DNA from: Acidithiobacillus marinus | Lineage (GTDB): Bacteria > Pseudomonadota > Gammaproteobacteria > Acidithiobacillales > Acidithiobacillaceae | Assembly (NCBI RefSeq): GCF_002847505.1 | Contig: NZ_MXAV01000002.1 | Location: 1-41,928 of the forward strand | Reading direction: 5' to 3' | Length of the DNA: 41,928 nucleotides | Shown here: positions 1 to 11,651 of the stretch, one piece after another | Layout of the letters: every line of letters begins with the position of its first letter | Numbering within the stretch: position 1 is the first letter of the stretch | Translations under genes and position numbers: made by a program | Notes under the pieces: generated by a model | What the model was told of the DNA's origin: nothing | The model's database searches: none | Seen by the model: only the letters and a program-made list of their open reading frames with translations

Positions 1-1281
1 GGTAGGGGGTAGAATGCTGTGGAGCGGTCGTGCCCTGAATTGGAGTTAGCTGATGGTCCCTGAAGAGCTGTTTTCTCTCGCGTTAGGATTGGTTCCGCCG
101 TGGTTGGTGGATCATGTGACTTTCACGGTGGAGGAGAAACGCCTGGATCTGCACATCAACTTTCCCAAGGGTAGTCGCTTTGCTTGCTCCGTCTGTGGTG
201 AGGAGTGTCCGGTACATGATACCCGTGACCATACTTGGCGGCACATGGATTTCTTCCAGCATGAAGCCTATCTCCATGCCCGCGTACCTCGTGTGAAGTG
301 CCAGGAGCATGGAGTGCATCAGATATCTGTTCCCTGGGCACGGGAAGGCTCGCATTTCACCCTGCTCTTCGAAGCGCTGATCATGACCCTGGTGCGGGAG
401 ATGCCGGTATTGACCGTAGCCCGCCTAGTCGGCGAGACCGACACGCTCCTGTGGCGGGTGATTGACCACTATGTGCCAGAAGCCCGTACCAGAGTGGATA
501 TGGCCCATGTCCATGCCGTCGGCGTCGATGAAACCAGCAGTCGGCGCGGCCACGACTACATCACGCTCTTCGTGGATCTGGATGCCCGGCGACTCTTGTT
601 CGCTACTCCCGGCAAGGATGCCAAGACCTTTGAGAGATTCTCCGCAGATCTACAGGCCCATGGTGGTAGCGCGGAAGCGATCACCGATGTGAGCATGGAC
701 CTCTCGCCGGCCTTCCAGAAAGGGGCTGCCGAGCACCTGCCCAATGCGGAGATCACTTTCGATCGTTTTCACCTCATGAAGCTCGTCAACGAGGCCGTGG
801 ACGACGTGCGCAAGGGGGAAGTCCTCACTCAGCCAAATCTCAAAAAGACCCGCTGGCTCTGGCTCAAGAACGATTGCAACCTCAAGGTGAAGCAGAAAGA
901 AAAGCTGCAGGCATTACTCAAAGACCAGAACCTCAAGACGGCGCAGGCCTACCAGTTCCGCCTGACCTTTCAGGACATCTTCACGATCAAGAATCGCCAT
1001 CAGGGGGCTACCCTCTTGAAAGCCTGGTTGGAAAACGCCAGAACCAGCGATCTGCCGCCTATCGTCAAGGTCGCCTACACCATCATGAATCACTGGGATG
1101 GCGTGCTCCGATGGTTCGAGAGCCAGATCACCAATGGAATTCTGGAAGGTTTCAACAGCCTCATTCAATCCGCCAAGGCCAAGGCTCGGGGTTACCGCAC
1201 GCACAAGAACTTTATCAACATGGCCTACCTGATCCTGGGCAAGCTGGATCTCAGGCTACCCACTTGAAATGACGAGGAACC
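1..1281 (+). mobile_element. ISL3-family insertion sequence, left end outside the window
   Basis: The element carries a full-length ISL3-type transposase. Its right end lies within about 15 bases after the transposase stop, because pelF coding sequence on the other strand resumes there (the conserved EHGIYTKER segment of PelF is intact from about 1290 upward). I place the end near 1281, where inward reading on the minus strand begins GGTTCCTCGTC. No matching inverted repeat is present in the first 52 bases, so the left end must lie just beyond the window. ISL3 elements are usually about 1.3 kb with an 8-bp duplication; the one from Acidithiobacillus ferrooxidans, ISAfe1, is of this family. 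The exact right boundary is uncertain by a few bases. Confidence 0.8.
53..1267 (+). CDS. ISL3-family transposase
   Basis: This 404-residue protein has the layout of ISL3 DDE transposases. An N-terminal zinc-finger region contains C45, C48, C52 and C83. The catalytic RNase-H-like domain shows D159 (in GVDET), an aspartate at D212 or D216 (ITDVSMDLS) and E365 (NGILEGFNS), the last followed by the basic stretch KAKARGYR that is typical of the family. The start is supported by GGAG eight bases upstream of the ATG. The reading frame is intact, so the element may still be active. Its insertion interrupts pelF, which is read on the opposite strand directly to the right. Confidence 0.95.
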   Translation: MVPEELFSLALGLVPPWLVDHVTFTVEEKRLDLHINFPKGSRFACSVCGEECPVHDTRDHTWRHMDFFQHEAYLHARVPRVKCQEHGVHQISVPWAREGSHFTLLFEALIMTLVREMPVLTVARLVGETDTLLWRVIDHYVPEARTRVDMAHVHAVGVDETSSRRGHDYITLFVDLDARRLLFATPGKDAKTFERFSADLQAHGGSAEAITDVSMDLSPAFQKGAAEHLPNAEITFDRFHLMKLVNEAVDDVRKGEVLTQPNLKKTRWLWLKNDCNLKVKQKEKLQALLKDQNLKTAQAYQFRLTFQDIFTIKNRHQGATLLKAWLENARTSDLPPIVKVAYTIMNHWDGVLRWFESQITNGILEGFNSLIQSAKAKARGYRTHKNFINMAYLILGKLDLRLPT

Positions 1282-1947
1282 AATCCGTCTTTCCTTGGTA
1301 TAAATACCGTGTTCTGAAATAACTAGAGGACAATCTCTATGATTGCTAAGCAAACTTCCCAGATATCCTGCATAACCAGTTGAGGGACAATGGACAATAC
1401 GTGTTGATGGTGCATTATTGAGCGCATTTTGTAGAAACCAAAGCGGTGCGTGCATTCCACGAATAGTCCAGAAGTAGTCCACAAAAGAGGGTTGATCGCT
1501 AATTTCTGAATAACAGGATAAAATGTATTCCCATACTTCCTTGCTTGCATAAAAATCATATTCTGAAATACCAAAATTGGTTGCAAATGCCCTGATCTCT
1601 AAATTGTTATGACCATGTAATGGACAATTTTTTATATTGTTATGTGCAGTTCTGGTTTTTTCTATAAGGTCAATCATGGCCCTTTTATGGGTTTTTCTTG
1701 ATGGTGTTTTCTTATTAACATCGTAAAGAAAGTATTCAGCATAATATTTAACATTTTCGGGCAACGGGTAAGGCTCGCTTGTGTACTCCTCACGCATGCT
1801 CCCAAGAAAAATTATTCCAAATTGATATTCCGAAAATCCTGTTATCAGACGATTTACCCATGAAGACACTCCTCCACGGACATATGGAAACGTGCCTTCA
1901 AGCACAAGAAGGATATCTACCGACTCTGCTGGTGAGGTGCCTAGCAT
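1282..1947 (-). pseudogene. pelF: pelF, N-terminal fragment (Pel polysaccharide glycosyltransferase) truncated by ISL3 element
   Basis: PelF is the cytosolic GT4-family glycosyltransferase that polymerises the Pel exopolysaccharide. The fragment keeps the N-terminal signature LLVLEGTFPYVRGGVSSWV and continues through about 220 residues to ISEHGIYTKER; the frame then runs into the insertion sequence and stops at 1225. PelF is normally around 500 residues, so the nucleotide-sugar-binding C-terminal half is missing here. I use the ATG at 1947, which overlaps the pelE stop (translational coupling), rather than a TTG six codons upstream. The rest of pelF, and pelG, may lie left of the window beyond the insertion sequence. 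The region is notably AT-rich. Confidence 0.85.
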
Positions 1948-2864
1948 GTTTTCTGACCTAACCAATAGGATATGGAGGGCCCATAACGGGATGATAAATA
2001 TATTTCAGGATATTTGCGATATATCTCACGAAGCTTGTCCATATTTTTTTTCTTGAAATATGCGGCCGCTAGATATGGTGCAATTGTAGAGCCAGCGATG
2101 TTTGATTTTTCGGCATCTTGGAGATGAGTGATCGCTTCATCTACTTCTCCAAGCTGTAGCGCATCAAGTCCTTGGAGCATTTTCATCGATGGTGATTGAT
2201 GATAAATTCTTGTGGTGTCCACCGACCTCTTTGTGCTTGATGGGGATGCAGCAGTAGTTATTTCCTGAACGGCAGAGTGCCTTATATTCCAGTATATCCA
2301 TTGTTTGTAGTCTTGCATGCGGATTAATGTTTTAGAGTTGCGTGTGAGTTTTATTTGTTTATTGAGGTTGATCAATAGTTCGGTATTTTCTTGTTCCCGT
2401 CTATCCAACGCGGCGTAAGCTAATAGTCGAACCTCTTCTGCATCATCGGATAATGCACCTCGCAGTAATTGAGATTGGCTATAAAATTGGGAATCAGCTA
2501 TTTGCGAGATGGCTTCTAGTCGTTGGCGGGGGTCACGGGAATGACGGAGCCTTGCAGATACACTTCCGGGGGCTATAGTTGATAGTGTTAGTCGTGCATC
2601 ACGCATTACAGCGGGCAGTTGTATTTTTTCAACAATCGGCGCATGCGCTTGTCTTAGAATGCTGCGCAGAAAAAATGCATAGACAAATACTATCACTGGG
2701 CCGAAGAGTGGAATGGTTGTTGCTATAATCACGATTAAAGAGAAAGAAAATAGTTTTTGCTGAGCTGCTTCGGATTTTGGGATAACGAGAAAGCTGAAGA
2801 GAACAAGGAGGAGCCAATATCCAGCGTATATAAACAGATCAATTTTGCTGAGTAATATACTCAT
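1941..2864 (-). CDS. pelE: PelE, inner-membrane TPR protein of Pel secretion
   Basis: This 307-residue protein has two N-terminal membrane segments (about residues 10-28 and 39-66) followed by a soluble alpha-helical part with tetratricopeptide-like helices, including an alanine- and leucine-rich stretch near residues 245-290. This is the layout of PelE, which works with PelD and PelG in the inner-membrane synthase complex. It has no enzymatic motif. Its ATG overlaps the pelD stop by four bases and its stop overlaps the pelF start, so the three genes are translationally coupled. Identification rests mainly on position between pelD and pelF and on topology, because PelE sequences are poorly conserved. 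Confidence 0.85.
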   Translation of the reverse strand: MSILLSKIDLFIYAGYWLLLVLFSFLVIPKSEAAQQKLFSFSLIVIIATTIPLFGPVIVFVYAFFLRSILRQAHAPIVEKIQLPAVMRDARLTLSTIAPGSVSARLRHSRDPRQRLEAISQIADSQFYSQSQLLRGALSDDAEEVRLLAYAALDRREQENTELLINLNKQIKLTRNSKTLIRMQDYKQWIYWNIRHSAVQEITTAASPSSTKRSVDTTRIYHQSPSMKMLQGLDALQLGEVDEAITHLQDAEKSNIAGSTIAPYLAAAYFKKKNMDKLREIYRKYPEIYLSSRYGPSISYWLGQKTC

Positions 2865-4156
2865 GATGCTATGCCTTCTTCAAGTATCTGTCTGATCTGG
2901 CTTTCACAAGATCTATTGTTGACAGCCACAACTTTGTGGCTTGTATAACATTGATCCCATTGCTTACGATAATGAATATTGCTTTCGGCACGCATGCGTT
3001 GAAAGTGTCCTTCGGCAGCCATGTTTCCTGCAAAAGGTAATAAAGCGATTAAGTTAACTTTTTCATGGTTGTCATGGATCCAAAGAATATCCAATCCTCG
3101 CCGTAATCTCCCCAAATACTCCAGAACCTGATCTGAGGCTGGGCCCTTATGAAATTCATAAAGAACGAACATGCCTACCTGGGGGATGCGTTGTGCGAGT
3201 TTCTGTAATTGCATTAAGTCTATGGCAAACTCGGCAGGACAATCAGGCCAGATGTCTAGCAACGTGGCAGCTTTAATCTGAGAATCAGCATAATTACATA
3301 AATATTGGAAAATGACTTCAATGGTTTGTAAGCTTTCTTTATTAATGGCAAAAAATGACATGTCTTCGACTGTTAAGATGAAATGCATTCCGGGAGAGCT
3401 AGTATGAACATGCGCACTGATATAAGTATCGATCGCGGTTATTTCCAGGTTTGCCAGAGTTTGACTGTGTGCGCTTTCCATCGCTTCTCGCAGGACTGGA
3501 TCATGGATTTCCCAAGGATGTACATCCCCAAAATTGGCAATGAGTGAAGGATTCGCCGCCCCTTTTTTAGTTTCGAAAATACTAGCAACTTGCACACCAA
3601 CGAGTTGGTTCAAAAAATAAAGAATGCTTTCGCCAAGATCCTTATCTAAGACTCCCTTTTTTTCAGCAAGTTGTTTTTTCAGCTCGAGCATGGCACTGCG
3701 TATGGACATAGGGTGGTAAAGCAAACTTTGCTCTAAGCGATCCTGTGAGATTCTAGTAACATACAGATCATCTGATAACTGCCGGAAGCGCGTGGTGGTA
3801 ATTTCTTCCTGTAATGATCTGCCTGCTTCTTTCCGTGTCCAGTAACCCGCATATTCTGAGGCAATCAAAATTACCAGTACTGTTCCGGCGAATACCTCAA
3901 GACCGCGAATTTCTGGATAGGGGTGCCATAAGAAGGTGCTTGCAAGAATTATGACGGACAGCAATGCTGGTAGTAACTCATAGCGAAGTGCAATCAGCAA
4001 TGGAATAATCAAAAGCCAAGGGAATGGTTGTTTGAGCAATAGGGGATCTGTGGGGCTGAGCTCCCAGGCCAGCAGTAACCCAAGGACCGGAAACAGGAAA
4101 GCCTCTATCCATCCTGCTCCCCAGCGAGGGAGTGCGGTAATTAAGGTTATACGCAT
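2861..4156 (-). CDS. pelD: PelD, c-di-GMP receptor of the Pel synthase
   Basis: PelD is the inner-membrane protein that binds cyclic di-GMP and switches on Pel synthesis. The 431-residue protein has four N-terminal hydrophobic segments between residues 17 and 101, a helical linker to about 170, a GAF-like domain (about 175-310) and a C-terminal degenerate GGDEF domain. No GGDEF active-site motif is visible, but RGLD at residues 353-356 fits the RxxD inhibitory-site motif through which PelD binds the dinucleotide. The gene lies 13 bases after pelC and overlaps pelE. The operon is therefore expected to respond to c-di-GMP, although polymer synthesis would also need an intact pelF. Confidence 0.93.
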   Translation of the reverse strand: MRITLITALPRWGAGWIEAFLFPVLGLLLAWELSPTDPLLLKQPFPWLLIIPLLIALRYELLPALLSVIILASTFLWHPYPEIRGLEVFAGTVLVILIASEYAGYWTRKEAGRSLQEEITTTRFRQLSDDLYVTRISQDRLEQSLLYHPMSIRSAMLELKKQLAEKKGVLDKDLGESILYFLNQLVGVQVASIFETKKGAANPSLIANFGDVHPWEIHDPVLREAMESAHSQTLANLEITAIDTYISAHVHTSSPGMHFILTVEDMSFFAINKESLQTIEVIFQYLCNYADSQIKAATLLDIWPDCPAEFAIDLMQLQKLAQRIPQVGMFVLYEFHKGPASDQVLEYLGRLRRGLDILWIHDNHEKVNLIALLPFAGNMAAEGHFQRMRAESNIHYRKQWDQCYTSHKVVAVNNRSCESQIRQILEEGIAS

Positions 4157-4169
4157 GCTGCTGAATTCT

Positions 4170-4700
4170 TTAGTGTAGAGCGCGCTGGAGCAGGCGCTGA
4201 ATCAAGCCTTGGGCGAGTCCTCCAGTTCCGCCACGACCCAGACTACCACCATGGGCGCTCCCAACCCCGGTCCAGATGACTTTTTGTTCTGGCACATTGA
4301 CGATCCAAAGTGTCATCGTCACTACAGGCTCCGCATTTATTCCTGCACGATAATTCCATTCGTCCACACTACCGCCCAAGGCATAGTGGATGCCGTCATT
4401 ATGGGCACGACTCAGCGCTGCGGTATATTCTTTTTTCCAGTCACCCCCTAATAATGACTGGATACGGCTCCGTATAGGCAGAGTCCCTATCACCTTTTGA
4501 TTATCACTTTGTAGAATGCCGGCCGCCAGCGCTGCAGCGCGTTCATTGGCCAGTGGGGTTTCGGTATTGTTGGCAAAGGGCAGTATGGTCCAGGTTGCAT
4601 TCTTGCTCAAGGCAACAGGCTTAGCAGATTGTACGGTCATTCCAGCGCAGCCGCTGAGCATCAATATCAGGACGGGAATCCACAATCCTCTGGTTTTCAT
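4170..4700 (-). CDS. pelC: PelC, outer-membrane lipoprotein of Pel export
   Basis: The protein has 176 residues, close to the usual PelC length. It starts with a lipoprotein signal peptide ending in the lipobox LSGC, which makes Cys18 the lipidated residue. The mature part resembles the alpha/beta fold of PelC, with a conserved stretch (TWTILPFANNTETPLA) after the lipid anchor. PelC forms a ring on the periplasmic face of the outer membrane under the PelB barrel and guides the cationic polymer outward. It follows the barrel-encoding pelB gene by 23 bases and precedes pelD by 13. Confidence 0.92.
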   Translation of the reverse strand: MKTRGLWIPVLILMLSGCAGMTVQSAKPVALSKNATWTILPFANNTETPLANERAAALAAGILQSDNQKVIGTLPIRSRIQSLLGGDWKKEYTAALSRAHNDGIHYALGGSVDEWNYRAGINAEPVVTMTLWIVNVPEQKVIWTGVGSAHGGSLGRGGTGGLAQGLIQRLLQRALH

Positions 4701-4723: not shown

Positions 4724-6409
4724 TTAAAAATAAAATCGATAATTCAATGAGAAGATTTGTTGATTTAATGCCAGACCATTCCCGCCTTGTCCCTGAGAAT
4801 AGTCCAGACTGAGACGATCGGGCCCCAGTATTGCTGTGCTGATTCCTGCATTGAATTGATATTGAAATCCAAATCGGGAATTATCATATACGCTGAGCTG
4901 TAGGTCGGGAGTCCAGTCAGGGCGCAGTTCCTGATCCAGGGCGCCCCACTGGAGCCGCAGGCCATAATCGCCGTAACTTCCTGGTAGCACACTTTGCATG
5001 TTGCGATCATTCGCAGAGAGTACCTCTGCGACTACGCCCTCTGGTTCGGCACGGCGTTGGAGCGCGTGGTAGTCTGCAAAGGGACCGATATGAAATTCCC
5101 AAGGACCGAGATGGGTCCGCCAGAAAGCACCCAGCTCTCCATATTTATCCGTGCCCTGCTGGATGCCGTCTTGCCCCAGATATTGTGTCCAGCCTAATGC
5201 TGCATTAGCTGTCCAGGCATCAACTGTTTGCGTTAACTGCACTTGTGCTCGATTGGCCATGCCTGCAACAGCTAAAGCCGGGCTCTGAAAAGTCTGGGAA
5301 TGATAACTGAGAAGTGTTGAAAGATTGGTTCCGTTCGTCAACTGCCAGTTCAGCACAAGCTTGCTGGTCCAGTTATTTCGTAGACCTCGGTATTCTCCGG
5401 CAGTGATATCCCCCTGCCAATGCAGGGTGCGCCAAAAAAATCCCATACTCGTACGATGTTGCATTCGAGGTGGCCGAACCAGTTGTGCATTTGGGCTGGC
5501 GTATTGCCACAAATTTTTACTTTTAAGCAAAATGCCCCAAAAAGGAGAGATGTGGATATGTGCGCTCAGCTCTGGCCCATACAACTGCAGCCCGTTGAAA
5601 CTCTGCCAACTTCCCTGCACATGCACAAAACTGGACGTACGGGACAGACTCTCGACATACATGAGGCGGAGTTCGCGATCAAACGGGTTTACCTGCAATG
5701 CCTTGACGGCTAAGGCTTGCGCCTGAAGAGGGCGTCCCAGGTCTTCTTCGGCCTGAAATATCTCCTTGGGCGGCACGTCGGCAGGATGGGCCACGAGTGT
5801 CTGAATGGTATCCATGTCCCGTTTGTGTAAGGCCAGACTCAAAAGGGCCCAAGGTGGTGTTCTCGACGGATTGTTTTTGATAAGAAGCTCTGCCAATCCC
5901 CAATATTTTCGGGAAAGGCTCCAGGATATGGCGGGTAAATAGTTCCCACGCTCTGCAGCAGCCATAAGAATGGCTTGCGTTTGATTGCCCTCCTGGGGTG
6001 ATGCGGACAGAGACTCAGCGAGTGTCTGCAATGCATCTTCCTGGCTTTGAGCCCCGAGCGGAGAAACTGATGATATGGCATTGGGTAGTTTGGCTGAGGC
6101 GGGCAGACTAGGTGCTGCCAGAGATGCACCTTCCATTCCTACAGGAATAGCCTCGTGTTCCAGTGCCTCTCTTTCAGCACGGTGTTTTTGATTGATCTCT
6201 TGATCGCGCAAAATAACCCGCAAATCAGGTTTGATGTTATTTTGCTCAGGATGGCTGTGCCGCTTTGATAAGGTGCTGGAGTCGGGCTTCGGCACGCTGT
6301 TTTGGGTATCCGCCAGCGCTTCCACGCTGGATGCCAAAGCGCAGGTGGCCAACAGCCACTTGCTGAAAATGCCAATTTTGGAATAAAGAGACATGGGAGC
6401 ATTATTCAT
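4724..6409 (-). CDS. pelB: PelB, third part: exported TPR plus outer-membrane beta-barrel protein
   Basis: I use the ATG at 6409, which has AAGGAG eight bases upstream, instead of an upstream in-frame start. This gives 561 residues. A clear signal peptide (KWLLATCALASSVEALA, cleavage after about residue 33) is followed by a low-complexity linker, helical TPR-like repeats (about 130-255) and a C-terminal half of alternating amphipathic strands that ends in NYRFYF with a terminal Phe, as outer-membrane barrels do. This matches the C-terminal porin of PelB, through which Pel leaves the cell. In Pseudomonas PelB is one chain of nearly 1,200 residues; here the barrel is a separately exported protein. 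The start overlaps the upstream pelB part by eight bases. Confidence 0.88.
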   Translation of the reverse strand: MNNAPMSLYSKIGIFSKWLLATCALASSVEALADTQNSVPKPDSSTLSKRHSHPEQNNIKPDLRVILRDQEINQKHRAEREALEHEAIPVGMEGASLAAPSLPASAKLPNAISSVSPLGAQSQEDALQTLAESLSASPQEGNQTQAILMAAAERGNYLPAISWSLSRKYWGLAELLIKNNPSRTPPWALLSLALHKRDMDTIQTLVAHPADVPPKEIFQAEEDLGRPLQAQALAVKALQVNPFDRELRLMYVESLSRTSSFVHVQGSWQSFNGLQLYGPELSAHIHISPFWGILLKSKNLWQYASPNAQLVRPPRMQHRTSMGFFWRTLHWQGDITAGEYRGLRNNWTSKLVLNWQLTNGTNLSTLLSYHSQTFQSPALAVAGMANRAQVQLTQTVDAWTANAALGWTQYLGQDGIQQGTDKYGELGAFWRTHLGPWEFHIGPFADYHALQRRAEPEGVVAEVLSANDRNMQSVLPGSYGDYGLRLQWGALDQELRPDWTPDLQLSVYDNSRFGFQYQFNAGISTAILGPDRLSLDYSQGQGGNGLALNQQIFSLNYRFYF

Positions 6410-8066
6410 GAGTGGTCTCCTTCTTTTGCGGAAGGACGTGATGAAGTTGGGCCAGGCTACCTGCCATAGCTTCTTGGCGCATTGACCAGGCAATACCGGA
6501 TTGGCCGGTAGATTCCCAAAGAGAAGCTTTATTGAGTAGTTGACGGTTATTCAGTTTTGACGGTTGCGAAGTTCGTTGAGCAAGAAATAATGCGCTTCTG
6601 TAGTGTCCCAAACGTTCCAGTGCATTCATAACAACGTCATGAAGCTCAGTTGATGGATGCAGGACGTCACCTACCAGCAAAGCTTGCAAAGCAGGCACAT
6701 TACCGGAATCAACCAACATCCAGAGGAGATTGTTTTTGGCAATATTATCTTCTGGATTCATATGCAAAGCTTCTGCATATGCGCTCTCGGCTAGGTCATA
6801 GTTTTTCAGGGCATTGGCCCATTGACCCATGGCTAACCAATAGGTGGCATAGGAGAGGAGTCCCTGAGGATCATGCTTCGGAACAGATCGCAATAATTGT
6901 CCCAAAGTCTTCCAGTGTTGGGCCTGTCCTGCGTATGTCAGGCTCTCAAAATAAAAATAGGGGAGCTGAAATTTTTTCCAGCCCCGTTGGGCAACGGCAA
7001 GAGCGGCTTCCGGATTCTCTGCGCCAACCAGCATGATCAAACGTTGCAGGTCATATTGGCTGGCAGCATCAAGCAGATAGAGTTTTTTTTCGGCATCCAG
7101 AGCCGCTTGATGATCATGGAGTTCCCAGGCCAGTACGGCAAGTAAATGCCAGAATGGCACATCATTTAAGGTTGCTTGATTCCGTGTCCGGTTCATAGCG
7201 GCAAAAGCTTCTGCGTATTTACCTTGCATGGATAGCAGGCGAGCTTCCTGAATGGCAATATCCGGGGTGGCCTTAAAGTGTTTTTGAACACTTTGCAGTG
7301 CTGCCAGGCTTTGCGCGATTTCACCCCGCTGATAACTGAGATAAGCTTTTTGCTCTAATAAAAAGCGATTCGGTCCGGTGTGTTGCAGCGACAGATTGAT
7401 GTCAGAAATAGCCTTGTCTGGCTCGCTCAGTTGTCCATAAGCATAAATCAGGGTTTTCCAGTCGGCATTACTCAGCCGACCGGCTCTTGCCAGAGGCGAA
7501 AGTAGCTGGATAACAATATCCGGCCGGGATAGTGCAGCGGCTAATTTGACTGCGGCCGCGAGGGCCCCCGGTTCCTTGTGGCGTGCTAACCAACGCCACT
7601 GCTGTAAAACGGTTTCGCGTTGCCCAAGCCAGGTACCCACCTGAATGAGCTTTTGGCGCCAGGAAATACTTTCTGGCTTTTGCAGCACAGCGGTGTAGGC
7701 CAGACGATAAGCTTCGTCCAACTGCCCAGATTGCAGGAACGCGCTATAGGCTAAATCGTAAAGTTCAGGAGAATAGCTGCCAGGAAAAGGCTGAACGACC
7801 ATGGGAGGTTTATACCAGGATGGTGAAATGCCACCCTGATCCAGATATCCCATACCCTTTCCCGATTTGATGCTTTGCGCAAGGCTGGCCGCAAAAGCAT
7901 CAACATTTGCCTTTTGCTGAGCATATTCTGTTCGCCATTTTGCGTCATCAGCGGCCAGGCTGCCGGGAGCTTTCCACCACGGTGTTACTGTGGCCGCATC
8001 ATGGGCGAAAGCGGCGGATCCTGTGGCGATGAGAAAAATCCCGAGCAGTAAGGGGAAGTGTTTCAT
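6402..8066 (-). CDS. pelB: PelB, second part: exported periplasmic TPR protein
   Basis: This 554-residue protein begins with its own signal peptide (MKHFPLLLGIFLIATGSAAFA, cleavage near residue 21) and then consists almost wholly of helical tetratricopeptide-like repeats, rich in Ala-Leu pairs with motifs such as YAEAFAAMNR and YAEALHMNPEDNIAKNNL. It has no barrel and no internal membrane segment. It corresponds to the middle TPR scaffold of PelB, which binds the deacetylase PelA in the periplasm. The ATG overlaps the stop of the first pelB part as ATGA, and the stop overlaps the start of the third part, so the three are translationally coupled. No Shine-Dalgarno sequence stands out at this start. 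Confidence 0.85.
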   Translation of the reverse strand: MKHFPLLLGIFLIATGSAAFAHDAATVTPWWKAPGSLAADDAKWRTEYAQQKANVDAFAASLAQSIKSGKGMGYLDQGGISPSWYKPPMVVQPFPGSYSPELYDLAYSAFLQSGQLDEAYRLAYTAVLQKPESISWRQKLIQVGTWLGQRETVLQQWRWLARHKEPGALAAAVKLAAALSRPDIVIQLLSPLARAGRLSNADWKTLIYAYGQLSEPDKAISDINLSLQHTGPNRFLLEQKAYLSYQRGEIAQSLAALQSVQKHFKATPDIAIQEARLLSMQGKYAEAFAAMNRTRNQATLNDVPFWHLLAVLAWELHDHQAALDAEKKLYLLDAASQYDLQRLIMLVGAENPEAALAVAQRGWKKFQLPYFYFESLTYAGQAQHWKTLGQLLRSVPKHDPQGLLSYATYWLAMGQWANALKNYDLAESAYAEALHMNPEDNIAKNNLLWMLVDSGNVPALQALLVGDVLHPSTELHDVVMNALERLGHYRSALFLAQRTSQPSKLNNRQLLNKASLWESTGQSGIAWSMRQEAMAGSLAQLHHVLPQKKETTHE

Positions 8067-8947
8067 GGCTGATGAGCCTGTACTGGTTTTTCAAGTTCTG
8101 CTTTTAACCATCGGGCGGCCTGCTTGGGTTGTCCGGTGGATATGGCCAGACGAGCCATGATCAGAACAATCTCACGTTCCTTGGCGATGCCGGGGAGCCG
8201 GGATAAGGTTTTTTCTCCTTGGAACAGTGCGAGCTTGGCGCCCCCTCCTCCTTGAATCAGAGTAAGACCACGGATGAAATAGTCTTTCTGCAGTGGCGCT
8301 TGATCACAGTGCAGCGCCATTTGCAGCAGGAGTTGTCCAGCTTTGACGCTTTTGCCATTAGCTGTCCACGCTGCAGCTGCCGCGTGCATGGCATGAACGG
8401 CTACAGCAGGGTTTTTCCGGGCTACCGCCAACCAGGCTTCTGCACTTTGATCATAGGCTCCAATTCGCAGGGCATCGTTAGCAAATTGTGTATATTCTTT
8501 GGCAGACCAGCCGCCTTCCTTGAGTAATTGCTCCAAATAAAGGATGAGTGCTGCCTGCGCTCTTTTTCTAGCGAGAGAAGCGGGTGGCAGCGCCATGGCA
8601 TGCGTCCAGTCTATTTTCCATTGCATGTGTTGCGCCTGCCGATATACCGGATCTTGAGGGTTACCAAGAATCGGTTGCAGTTGTTTTCTTGCCGCCATGT
8701 ACTGGCCGCTGTGCAGCAAAAGCTCAGCGCTCTGGATACGGGCTATACCGTTTGCTGTTGAGCTTTGAAAATTCAGGCGCCCACGCCATCCATAACCCCA
8801 GGCAATAGCTACAATCACTATCAGTATGGTGAATACGAAAATCCAAATGCTAGCAGATCGCAGTACAGGTTGCGCCGGCGGCTGAGATTTATGGTGTGCA
8901 GGTGACATGCAAAGTGACATGCTGGGCTGAACTTTGAAGTTGTTCAC
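8063..8947 (-). CDS. pelB: PelB, first part: membrane-anchored TPR protein
   Basis: The protein has up to 294 residues. A short N-terminal tail is followed by one transmembrane helix (about residues 33-50, SIWIFVFTILIVIVAIAW) and a helical TPR-like domain with repeated Ala-rich pairs. This is the arrangement of the N-terminus of PelB, which anchors the scaffold in the inner membrane. The start at 8947 is GTG and overlaps pelA by 59 bases; ATGs at 8920 and 8908 are alternatives, none with a strong ribosome-binding site. The helix is intact whichever start is used. The stop overlaps the next pelB part. Confidence 0.8.
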   Translation of the reverse strand: MNNFKVQPSMSLCMSPAHHKSQPPAQPVLRSASIWIFVFTILIVIVAIAWGYGWRGRLNFQSSTANGIARIQSAELLLHSGQYMAARKQLQPILGNPQDPVYRQAQHMQWKIDWTHAMALPPASLARKRAQAALILYLEQLLKEGGWSAKEYTQFANDALRIGAYDQSAEAWLAVARKNPAVAVHAMHAAAAAWTANGKSVKAGQLLLQMALHCDQAPLQKDYFIRGLTLIQGGGGAKLALFQGEKTLSRLPGIAKEREIVLIMARLAISTGQPKQAARWLKAELEKPVQAHQP

Positions 8948-11651
8948 TGGCTGGAACTTTTGTTGTCTGGCCGTTCATGCTTGCACGACAATTGCGGGCA
9001 TTACCTAATTGTATTTGTACGGGAACAAAGCCCTCCAGTTTGGCGATAAAGCCGTTGTTTTCAGATGTGAATCCAGAGATGGGTGCGTTAGCGCTGACAA
9101 TATAGGGAAGCGACCTGGGGTTCTTGCTGAGCGATAAATAGATAGATGGAGCTCCATCCATATGCACATAGAGCTTACCGTTGGGGCTCTGATTATATCC
9201 TGCTATGCCGTGGCTTTGGGCGATGTCAGGAATCCCGAGGCTGCTCGGCATCCGCAGCTCCCGCAGAGCACCAGCCTCGCCAATCCAGAAACCGCTTCCC
9301 TCGCGAGCGAGATGAATCGTATAAAAATTGTTGGCTATATGTGCGTAGTCAGCCACATAAATAGGGGTGATGGACTGCGTCAGCACCCAGTTATAAACTT
9401 TATCTACAGCTGAAATGGAAGCCAGTTTCGTGGCGCTGTACCAATGCGTATATATGTCTATGGGTTTAAGTCGATGCGGTTTGTTGGTCATTTCAAAGGT
9501 CTGAATGACATTTTCAAAGCCCCAGTATGGTCCGTGCCATTGATTGGTAAAGTAATCTTCATTCGCATCTGGCGCAAAAACCTGCAGCCATTTGCCCCGG
9601 AAAATACCAATGGGTGGCACTGCCGTAATACTGGGATCTTTTTTGCTAATGGTGCTTTCGCCGCCGTTGATATTCATAAGCCCGGCCTTGTAGGCAAGAC
9701 CAACCACCTGAGCATCGGGTTCGCAATCACCTGACCACTGATCAATCACCACCTTTTTGTCCGGTGGGGACAGGTGTTTATCAATCCATTTGGCGGCGCC
9801 AACCGCTTCCATATAAGGACTGAATTTGTAACCCGGTACCGGCAGATTGATGCCGGGATAATCCTTGCCGGCCTCAATGGCGGGCCAGTCAAAGGGATGC
9901 GACCACATGTGTGAACCAATTTCCACATAAGGTAACCGGAATACCTCACGCGCCACTTTGGTGCCCAAAGGTACCAGAGCCGGATACAGGCCGCGGTCAC
10001 CCGGTAATAAATCACCGACTATGATAGAGCCGGTAAAGGGTAGTTTATATTTCTCCAGGATCCGGTGCATGTAGACCTCCCCGGCAATGTGGTAGGGAGG
10101 AAACTGCGCACGGCTGACAAATCCATCGCCATCGGTATGCGCCATAAACAGTCTGCGTCCACTTTCTGTAGTGGTGTCGGGAACCGGTATATCCGGCAAA
10201 CGAAATGCCTCGGTGTATAGCTGGAAGGGATTGATCAGCCAACGGGTATCTTTATTAGGCAGGGTAGTGAGGAGATAGGGTGAGAGTACATAGCCTCCCC
10301 AAGGGGTTATGGCTGCAGCATCTTCAGTTTGGCCCCCAGGACTTTTCAGCGTGAGCCATACATGGCTATCGGAAGGCGCGGTGATTTGCAAAAAATCTCT
10401 GGGGTTTGCCGTAATGGGCATCTCATAGCTCATGTTTTTGTTTTGAGATGTAATGCTCAGGGAACTGACGTTCTGGCTCACTGGCTTGCTCATGCCCAGG
10501 TCCATATAAGTTTTGTCATCCAGAGCATCCTGAAAATCGCCGATCAACAATATAGGAATGCCTGCTGCCTTGGCTTCATCCAGCCAGTGAGATATGCCAG
10601 CAACATCTTTGACAGGCTCACCATCACTCCAAAGTATGACGCCGGCATATTCTCCGGGGCGAGGACTATCGGGTAATCCTTCGGATAGGCGACGAAATTG
10701 CGGAACATAACCGAGGTATTCAAGAGGCATCGCGCCATTGGCAAAGGCAGAGCTATATTGTTTCGGATCAGAGCTGTTATACAAAATGAGCACGTGGCGA
10801 GGCATGGGTTCCCGTAAACCAGCACCCACAGCACTTAGCCCAGCATCAGTAACATACGGAACAAAACCCAGAGATTGGATTTTTTGTGCATCTTTCCACC
10901 AGCAGTGACGATTCAGCTGGGGTGGCATGTAGTCGATCACAATAGCGGGCAATCCATACGCCTGAACTTTCCTGAGTTCGGAAATCAGCTCTTTCTGGAC
11001 AGGCTCAGGAACGGACGAGTAGCTTCTTGTTTCTTGATCCCACTGTTTGAACAAAGATTCTGCAACTACTCCGACAATATCTTTATGAATCTCGGGAAGC
11101 ACTGAAAAACCGCGATTGGCGATGAGCTGAACATTGGGGTGGGCGCTTTTAATGGCCTGGATGAGTTGCACTAATCCATTTTCTTGCGCTTTTTGAGCCA
11201 TGGGATTTTTATCAACGAGCTTGAATGAATCCAGAGTGTCCATGAAAAAGGCGTGATAACCTTGTTGCCATATAGGATTAATCACCTGCTTCAGCAAATA
11301 GTTGCGACAGTCAGCATGAGAGAGATTGATGATTTTCCCTCCCCAAACTGCATTGCTGCCCAACACGCAACTCTCTGGAAGGTTCTGGTAGCGGGCATCT
11401 CCCGGGGTGGTTTCGCCGATGCTGACATAAGCAAAAACCTGTTGGTTCTGATCAAAGTCGCTCGGCAGTCGCTGATTGCCGGGGTTTACCACAACCCACT
11501 TGAAGTCTCGGAATGCTTCTGGGGCAGAACCAGAACCATAATAGAAGCCTACGCTGGGCAGGGTGCTGGCCAGGGCTGACCAGGGCAGAAGCGTCCAACA
11601 CAAAAGCAAGATACTTAATCTGGGCCGCAGCAGCGTAATGAATTTTGTCAT
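8889..11651 (-). CDS. pelA: PelA, Pel deacetylase and glycoside hydrolase
   Basis: PelA is the periplasmic enzyme that deacetylates and trims the Pel polymer. The 920-residue protein has a signal peptide (LLLCWTLLPWSALA, about residues 14-28), an N-terminal TIM-barrel hydrolase of the GH114-like type (about 32-285) with MDTLDSF near 137 and an acidic residue at E198 (VVAESLF), a flavodoxin-like region (about 285-380), and a polysaccharide deacetylase domain (about 495-780). The deacetylase shows metal and catalytic residues in HTDGDGF (D507, D509) and SHMWSHP (H581, H585), the same spacing pattern as in Pseudomonas PelA. It is the first gene of the operon and its 3' end overlaps the first pelB gene. 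The catalytic residues look complete. Confidence 0.94.
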   Translation of the reverse strand: MTKFITLLRPRLSILLLCWTLLPWSALASTLPSVGFYYGSGSAPEAFRDFKWVVVNPGNQRLPSDFDQNQQVFAYVSIGETTPGDARYQNLPESCVLGSNAVWGGKIINLSHADCRNYLLKQVINPIWQQGYHAFFMDTLDSFKLVDKNPMAQKAQENGLVQLIQAIKSAHPNVQLIANRGFSVLPEIHKDIVGVVAESLFKQWDQETRSYSSVPEPVQKELISELRKVQAYGLPAIVIDYMPPQLNRHCWWKDAQKIQSLGFVPYVTDAGLSAVGAGLREPMPRHVLILYNSSDPKQYSSAFANGAMPLEYLGYVPQFRRLSEGLPDSPRPGEYAGVILWSDGEPVKDVAGISHWLDEAKAAGIPILLIGDFQDALDDKTYMDLGMSKPVSQNVSSLSITSQNKNMSYEMPITANPRDFLQITAPSDSHVWLTLKSPGGQTEDAAAITPWGGYVLSPYLLTTLPNKDTRWLINPFQLYTEAFRLPDIPVPDTTTESGRRLFMAHTDGDGFVSRAQFPPYHIAGEVYMHRILEKYKLPFTGSIIVGDLLPGDRGLYPALVPLGTKVAREVFRLPYVEIGSHMWSHPFDWPAIEAGKDYPGINLPVPGYKFSPYMEAVGAAKWIDKHLSPPDKKVVIDQWSGDCEPDAQVVGLAYKAGLMNINGGESTISKKDPSITAVPPIGIFRGKWLQVFAPDANEDYFTNQWHGPYWGFENVIQTFEMTNKPHRLKPIDIYTHWYSATKLASISAVDKVYNWVLTQSITPIYVADYAHIANNFYTIHLAREGSGFWIGEAGALRELRMPSSLGIPDIAQSHGIAGYNQSPNGKLYVHMDGAPSIYLSLSKNPRSLPYIVSANAPISGFTSENNGFIAKLEGFVPVQIQLGNARNCRASMNGQTTKVPASEQLQSSAQHVTLHVTCTP

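Follow-up and report, generated by a model that had tools for sequence, protein, structure and literature searches.

In Pseudomonas aeruginosa the Pel export protein PelB is a single chain, whereas the stretch of DNA analysed here (hereafter the window; 41,928 nucleotides of Acidithiobacillus marinus, positions 1 to 41,928 of contig NZ_MXAV01000002.1, assembly GCF_002847505.1) holds three intact open frames in the pelB slot, between pelA and pelC on the minus strand, which we term B1, B2 and B3. The question raised by this locus is whether these frames are the remains of one broken gene or the parts of a divided exporter. We favour a PelB homologue that is stably split at two module borders and whose parts would be realigned end to end in the periplasm, a reading to which we assign a probability of roughly 0.78. 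Reassembly in the periplasm appears well supported by sequence comparison, and we infer the membrane location of the parts, their binding to PelA and PelC, the end-to-end assembly and the transport of Pel.

All three genes are read from the minus strand. B1 (8063..8908, 281 amino acids (aa)) carries a predicted inner-membrane helix at residues 17-38 (8795..8860; from hydrophobicity and the structure model), followed by about six repeats resembling tetratricopeptide repeats (TPRs). B2 (6402..8066, 554 aa) combines a signal peptide, predicted by rule to be cleaved after residue 21 (8004..8066), with a TPR solenoid whose alignment to PelB starts at about PelB residue 298, and B3 (4724..6409, 561 aa) consists of a signal peptide, likewise predicted to be cleaved after residue 33 (6311..6409), a charged linker, a helical collar and a β-barrel. 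The B1 stop and B2 start share the four bases ATGA (8063..8066), the B2 stop and B3 start overlap by 8 bases (6402..6409), and a strong Shine-Dalgarno sequence of B3, AAGGAG (6417..6422), lies within the 3' end of B2. Both overlaps had been noted in an earlier, sequence-only reading of the locus, and the joints proved to be conserved in relatives. That reading had let B1 begin at GTG 8947, which had to be corrected: the relatives' alignments begin at ATG 8908, which makes the alternative starts 8920 and 8947 unlikely and gives a 20-base overlap between pelA and B1.

The same reading had proposed that the three frames divide the roles of PelB, and the homology searches bear this out. B3 matched the PelB C-terminal β-barrel family PF24604 (residues 257-560, 4730..5641) with 188.6 bits against a cut-off of 31, the sole match to this family in the whole genome, while B2 matched TPR families and B1 did so weakly. 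A profile built from B2 and the fused rows described below (A1) matched P. aeruginosa PelB (PDB 9h80) over residues 298-1174 (expectation value, E, 4.8e-72) and the crystallised PelA-binding TPR fragment 5wft at profile positions 142-241 (E 1.8e-9), which places the PelA-binding TPR homology inside B2; the B1 profile matched residues 73-240 of 9h80 (E 2.3e-6). A phmmer search of the PDB with B3 alone found no relative, and only the profile search gave one. In these alignments, with their ends extrapolated, the cuts fall near PelB residues 280-285 and 740-750. PelB of P. aeruginosa has TPR1-19 at residues 69-726, then a helical region and the barrel at 876-1193, with PelA bound on TPR9-15 (PMC12022489; articles cited by PMC number are represented here and below by parts of their text). 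Set against these borders, B1 would be the membrane helix plus TPR1-6, B2 TPR7-19 and B3 the helical region plus barrel, so that both cuts fall near known module borders. The column aligned with the gate tyrosine, Tyr-1103, was offset from an S-Y-x-D-Y-G stretch of B3 in the profile alignment.

In its structure model, B1 forms 12 main helices (about six pairs) past the membrane helix, with a mean predicted local distance difference test score (pLDDT) of 86.9. The model of the natural B2-B3 fusion of A. ferrianus (mean pLDDT 87.4) has 26 helices (13 pairs), which a low-confidence break at 529-546, at the gene joint, separates from 8 further helices and 16 strands. The helix pairs, 6 + 13, equal in number the 19 TPRs described for P. 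aeruginosa PelB (PMC12022489). A Foldseek search with the fusion model gave PelB of 9h80 as the top match (E 2.1e-14, template modelling score TMt 0.83); the 16-strand barrel with helical collar of 9h80 was thus recovered, on this homologous fusion only. Lower matches were BcsC and the polysaccharide secretin 4y25, which we take to be PgaA. The fold search with the B1 model returned generic TPR solenoids, with no PelB entry among the 50 matches listed.

As for PelB, pelA and pelC adjoin the pelB genes. An N-terminal inner-membrane helix precedes the TPRs in B1; here the proposed membrane-anchored TPR protein stands as to its long hydrophobic helix and about six TPRs, and the uncleaved state of the helix is predicted from its length and the parallel to P. 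aeruginosa PelB, since A-x-A-like triplets occur within it as well. The modules do not lie in a single polypeptide, but in three frames with separate leaders, and the locus is therefore named a split PelB homologue, not PelB proper. By analogy, PelA binding, PelC-ring binding and Pel export would fall to the predicted B1, B2 and B3 parts.

The split is conserved within the family. A PelB barrel was found in 19 of the 29 family genomes, our own counted, and the comparison covered 19 regions from 18 other genomes. In fourteen of these the sequence can be followed to the B2 stop; the B1|B2 split is present in all of them and the B2|B3 split in 13. Twelve carry the three genes in full, in L047 (L numbers denote loci, G numbers genomes) B3 runs off the contig, and in L043 (A. 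ferrianus) B2 and B3 are fused with B1 separate. In the remaining five (L032, L034, L044, L046, L048), contig ends or insertions interrupt the locus. The close relatives thus speak for the sequence-only reading: no single uninterrupted pelB occurs among the 14 readable family loci, B1 being separate in the one B2-B3 fusion as well. Taking as start codon at each joint the choice nearest to a 4-base overlap, a start with exactly 4 overlapping bases is possible at the B1|B2 joint in 15/15 loci, the window counted, and at the B2|B3 joint the overlap is 4 bases in 12/16 and 8 bases in 4/16, the latter all from the window's subclade. Four-base gene overlaps are common in operons, and it is the conservation of the overlap, rather than the 4-base overlap alone, that counts. 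The ratio of nonsynonymous to synonymous substitution rates (dN/dS) relative to A. montserratensis was 0.161 for B1, 0.121 for B2, 0.136 for B3, 0.075 for pelA and 0.085 for pelC, quoted against this species only because against A. concretivorus pelA, B3, pelC and pelE were saturated, giving no dS. As a separate observation, dS against A. montserratensis was 0.4-0.9 from pelA to pelC and 1.6-2.8 from pelD to pelF, and a recombination border inside the operon, between pelC and pelD, is possible from these values.

B2 furthermore carries a conserved N-terminal segment of about 75 residues (WW.APGSLA ... SPSWY.PP; residues 22-99, window 7770-8003). Its SPxWY and WW marks occur in 15/15 B2 proteins of the three-gene clade, two fused ones counted, and in 0/24 two-gene proteins; the count took in the first 140 residues only, so that the equivalent place in single-chain PelB lies outside its range. 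The segment has no confident fold in the A. ferrianus fusion model and is a candidate docking element.

We also examined how far the arrangement extends beyond the family. The best 80 of 280 relatives in a PelA scan gave 79 distinct loci, whose architecture was tallied by reading. Fifteen are three-gene loci, including one with a broken B3 and one whose B3 runs off the contig, from species that include A. montserratensis, A. concretivorus, A. sulfurivorans and A. ferrivorans DSM 22755 as well as from metagenome bins; at two more the contig stops inside a separate B2, and two, inside the three-gene clade, have B2 and B3 fused. A two-gene form (B1 | B2B3) accounts for 27 loci and a single chain for another 27, some of each running off contigs, with one broken single chain and five loci that are unreadable or lack pelB next to pelA. 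The two-gene form is found in Mizugakiibacter, Acidiferrobacter, Curvibacter, Rhodoferax, Geobacter and Pelotalea, and in 22 of the 24 two-gene loci examined the second gene has a start with a 4-base overlap, upstream of which its frame stays open over 200 codons or more. Since two-gene pelB is so widespread, the B1|B2 cut is, by this survey, not special to the Acidithiobacillus lineage; of the three-part arrangement put forward by the sequence-only reading, the B2|B3 split holds in the clade apart from the two fused loci, while the B1|B2 half is shared with two-gene pelB. Wider barrel searches gave matches in 22/369 genomes of the class and 17/398 of the phylum, weak ones below the cut-off included, and in 24 of the 28 distinct extra-family genomes with a match above the cut-off the barrel frame exceeds 900 aa. 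Plasmid records gave distant matches to B2 only (10 records, identity 23-27%).

The history of the two cuts was read from a PelA tree of 82 rows, for which 11 of the 79 scan loci were left out on account of contig ends, absence of pelB next to pelA, a partial PelA or a broken frame (L109, L112, L117, L119, L127, L139, L143, L148, L152, L170 and L178) and 14 rows, the window counted, were added. The three-gene and the two fused loci form one clade of 20 rows with a support of 100 in the Shimodaira-Hasegawa-like approximate likelihood ratio test (SH-aLRT). Separation of B2 and B3 takes three changes on this tree, best read from the topology as one split followed by two re-fusions. In a thinned tree of 57 rows (25/82 dropped; simpler model), the source of the approximately unbiased (AU) tests, the support of the joint clade was 100, and forcing the fused rows outside was rejected (p-AU 9.7e-45), the group having been named after the tree was seen. 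A3 used 62 of 64 sequences, the single-chain rows L168 and L172 being dropped. In a first, smaller tree, retention and re-fusion had required equal numbers of changes for A. ferrianus; re-fusion, and not an ancestral fusion, is favoured by the AU test and by the three-gene row L116, which branches deeper.

Compared with A. ferrivorans, A. ferrianus seems to have cleanly lost, in frame, the end of B2 and the start, signal peptide and linker of B3. In L107 (G146), the second fusion, a long linker remains, with no leader-like stretch visible by eye, so that both natural re-fusions are without a B3 leader; the operon of L107 was probably acquired horizontally, because the locus, from another family, adjoins Acidithiobacillus loci in the tree. 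It would seem from these re-fusions that a single chain can do the work of B2 and B3. The B1|B2 cut takes two changes on the 82-row tree and three on the thinned one, where a single origin was not rejected (p-AU 0.11), and we therefore do not claim its convergence. Overall, the three-part split of Acidithiobacillus and a few relatives is of long standing and has been stably kept.

The translation and export signals differ among the three genes. Pairing with the anti-Shine-Dalgarno sequence was -8.8 kcal/mol for B3, the strong site that had been predicted, -2.5 for B2 and +1.2 for B1. Owing to their weak ribosome sites, B1 and B2 look translationally coupled, and the site of B3 would fit separate recruitment. 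The 19-residue mean hydrophobicity of the N-termini was 2.69 for B1, 1.72 for B2 and 1.32 for B3. As the sequence-only reading had it, B2 and B3 begin with signal-peptide patterns with A-x-A sites, found by a home-made rule, not by SignalP. Among the relatives the rule passed 14/14 B2 and 12/14 B3 proteins, and among two-gene B2B3 proteins 21/23, compared with 56/1116 internal in-frame pelB starts (taken from 12 single-chain and 23 two-gene sequences, without L124) and 12/384 open out-of-frame starts. Judged by these pass rates, in particular against internal starts, the leaders appear to be more than chance.

For P. aeruginosa PelB, it is reported that an engineered fragment, 762-1193, arrived at the outer membrane behind a foreign signal peptide and retained the PelC ring; the barrel by itself failed to retain PelC (PMC12141448). 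Since natural B3 with its own leader almost equals this fragment, we propose a three-part mechanism. B1 would remain in the inner membrane as the entrance anchor, its TPR1-6 receiving Pel as it emerges from the synthase; B2, the TPR7-19 solenoid, would be set free in the periplasm, where it would dock PelA and form the middle of the groove; B3 would go to the outer membrane and form the exit as collar and barrel inside the PelC ring; and the three, aligned end to end, would rebuild the groove of single-chain Pseudomonas PelB. That the parts are adjacent is argued from the two B2-B3 re-fusions and from the single-chain and two-gene relatives. A stronger version, which we offer as a tentative and rather doubtful extension, is an obligate three-piece conduit in which each membrane builds its own part and B2 with PelA serves as a replaceable linker through the B2 N-terminal docking element; were this so, assembly of the bridge, confined to times of PelD and synthase activity, could act as a switch that turns Pel export on.

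Several points weigh against the end-to-end reading. The folded protein was the A. ferrianus fusion, not B2 or B3 of the window, its model has a predicted template modelling score (pTM) of 0.50, which makes the relative placement of the modules uncertain, and its collar has 8 helices, compared with ten described for P. aeruginosa PelB (PMC12022489). No B1-B2 re-fusion was seen within the clade. The signal-peptide rule was fixed after the sequences had been viewed and is failed by two of the 14 relatives' B3 proteins, and the A-x-A-like triplets inside the B1 helix are present in 14/16 rows. It is conceivable that the parts act without a continuous scaffold, B3 and PelC exporting alone, B2 serving as a diffusible PelA carrier and B1 as a synthase adaptor: the collar-barrel fragment self-assembles with PelC in E. 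coli (PMC12141448), and in alginate export, too, the TPR protein (AlgK) and the barrel (AlgE) are distinct proteins (PMC9734138). We nevertheless consider this unlikely, as two fusions of B2 to B3 arose within the clade, the B3 leader disappearing each time, and the module order is the same as in single-chain PelB.

The frames might also be the product of decay, a single pelB having been broken by recent nonsense or frameshift changes. Indeed, the isolate's own operon is broken in pelF by an insertion sequence, and the B3 frame is broken in L032 by a frame shift and in L101 by an insertion, points that count against a working exporter too. The split, however, is common to three genus groups and the whole clade, with equal cut sites, retained leaders, conserved overlaps and low dN/dS in all three genes, and we regard decay or sequencing error as ruled out by this conservation, its chance being close to nil; the sequence-only reading had rightly set it aside. 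The three-gene loci that bear a species name are all from Acidithiobacillus, a genus of acidophiles, and the split could accordingly be an adaptation to acid, for example if a membrane-spanning chain misfolded at low periplasmic pH. This too is improbable, since the B1|B2 cut also occurs in Rhodoferax, Curvibacter, Geobacter and Pelotalea, which are not acidophiles, and A. ferrianus re-fused B2 and B3; the association with acidophiles is also confounded by one origin.

Some further irregularities were seen in individual loci. Decay or an assembly error may explain the frames broken in L032 (G027), where B3 is in pieces of 231 + 391 aa, in L083 (G291), with pelB in 242 + 767 aa, and in L178 (Cupriavidus pauculus), with 1166 + 206 aa. 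In L101 (Acidithiobacillus sp. HP-2), foreign DNA from about 13487 to the contig end breaks B3 at about residue 199 (A. concretivorus B3 numbering), and the first ~343 bases of L034 (G010), read as reverse complement, look like the opposite flank of an insertion of this kind, the overlap being 4 bases. The charged linker of B3 (window 6041-6310, residues 34-123) includes a conserved stretch ending in HEAIPVGMEG, found in the window, L100, L102 and L118, whereas the other 10 rows of the B3 alignment lack it; L101, close kin of these loci, has lost much of the linker, which is about 60 codons shorter.

The rest of the operon also lies on the minus strand. The deacetylase/hydrolase gene pelA (8889..11651; Glyco_hydro_114 match) stands directly upstream of B1, and pelC (4170..4700), for which a Pfam search of the window proteins gave no match, was assigned from orthologues in equal operon position. 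It is followed by pelD (2861..4156; PelD_GGDEF match), pelE (1941..2864; by comparison with the relatives' operons) and the 5' half of pelF (1282..1965), whose 3' half is at the end of contig G000:C1. Between the halves lies an insertion sequence of the ISL3 family (1..1281, plus strand; transposase 53-1267), a feature that the sequence-only reading had missed. Its right border at 1281 is fixed by four other copies, and its left terminus may extend a base or two past the contig start. An 8-base target site duplication, AATCCGTC (1282..1289), read by eye, recurs at the end of contig C1, which ends inside the element, before the other pelF half. The genome contains 31 matches to the element, 13 of them full length and identical, so the insertion may be recent. 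Although the pelB genes are intact, the interruption of pelF probably leaves this isolate unable to make Pel, unless the culture was mixed.

The locus matters because natural cuts lie near structurally proposed borders, one of them re-joined twice, and because in a biomining bacterium each PelB module, being an entire protein, could be deleted, labelled or exchanged on its own. That PelB spans both membranes has only been proposed, in the words that it 'may physically bridge' them (PMC12141448). Work with a pelD deletion in A. thiooxidans shows that gene deletion exists there and that Pel matters for biofilm (PMC5852609, PMC7825692), and with each module a separate protein in a deletable host the bridging question becomes directly testable.

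Finally, the locus was compared with known systems. The covered parts of papers on the A. caldus and A. thiooxidans pel operons (PMC4331095, PMC5852609, PMC7825692) do not mention a split pelB, and no description of a three-gene pelB was found in the portion of open-licence PMC text covered. A figure legend reports 'pelB fission ... in aquatic thermophilic species' (PMC7112194, Fig 5), which resembles the window in that pelB is divided into more than one gene; the text covered names neither the organisms nor the cut sites, and the word Acidithiobacillus is absent from the main text of that article as far as it was covered. In alginate export, as here, TPR scaffold and outer-membrane barrel are separate proteins and a modifying enzyme sits on the TPR part; by its description, however, AlgK is an outer-membrane lipoprotein, and no inner-membrane TPR anchor is described in the parts covered (PMC9734138). 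Two-gene pelB has the same first cut, a membrane-anchored TPR protein followed by a TPR-barrel protein with a signal peptide, but keeps B2 and B3 in one chain and lacks the conserved B2 N-terminal segment, whereas the window has them in separate frames. P. aeruginosa PelB (9h80, 5wft; PMC12141448, PMC12022489) has the same modules in the same order with the same pelA and pelC neighbours, in one chain of 1193 aa as opposed to three chains, two of them with their own signal peptides. The splitting of pelB as such is therefore already known, and the three-gene form with the B2|B3 cut is a new variant of it.

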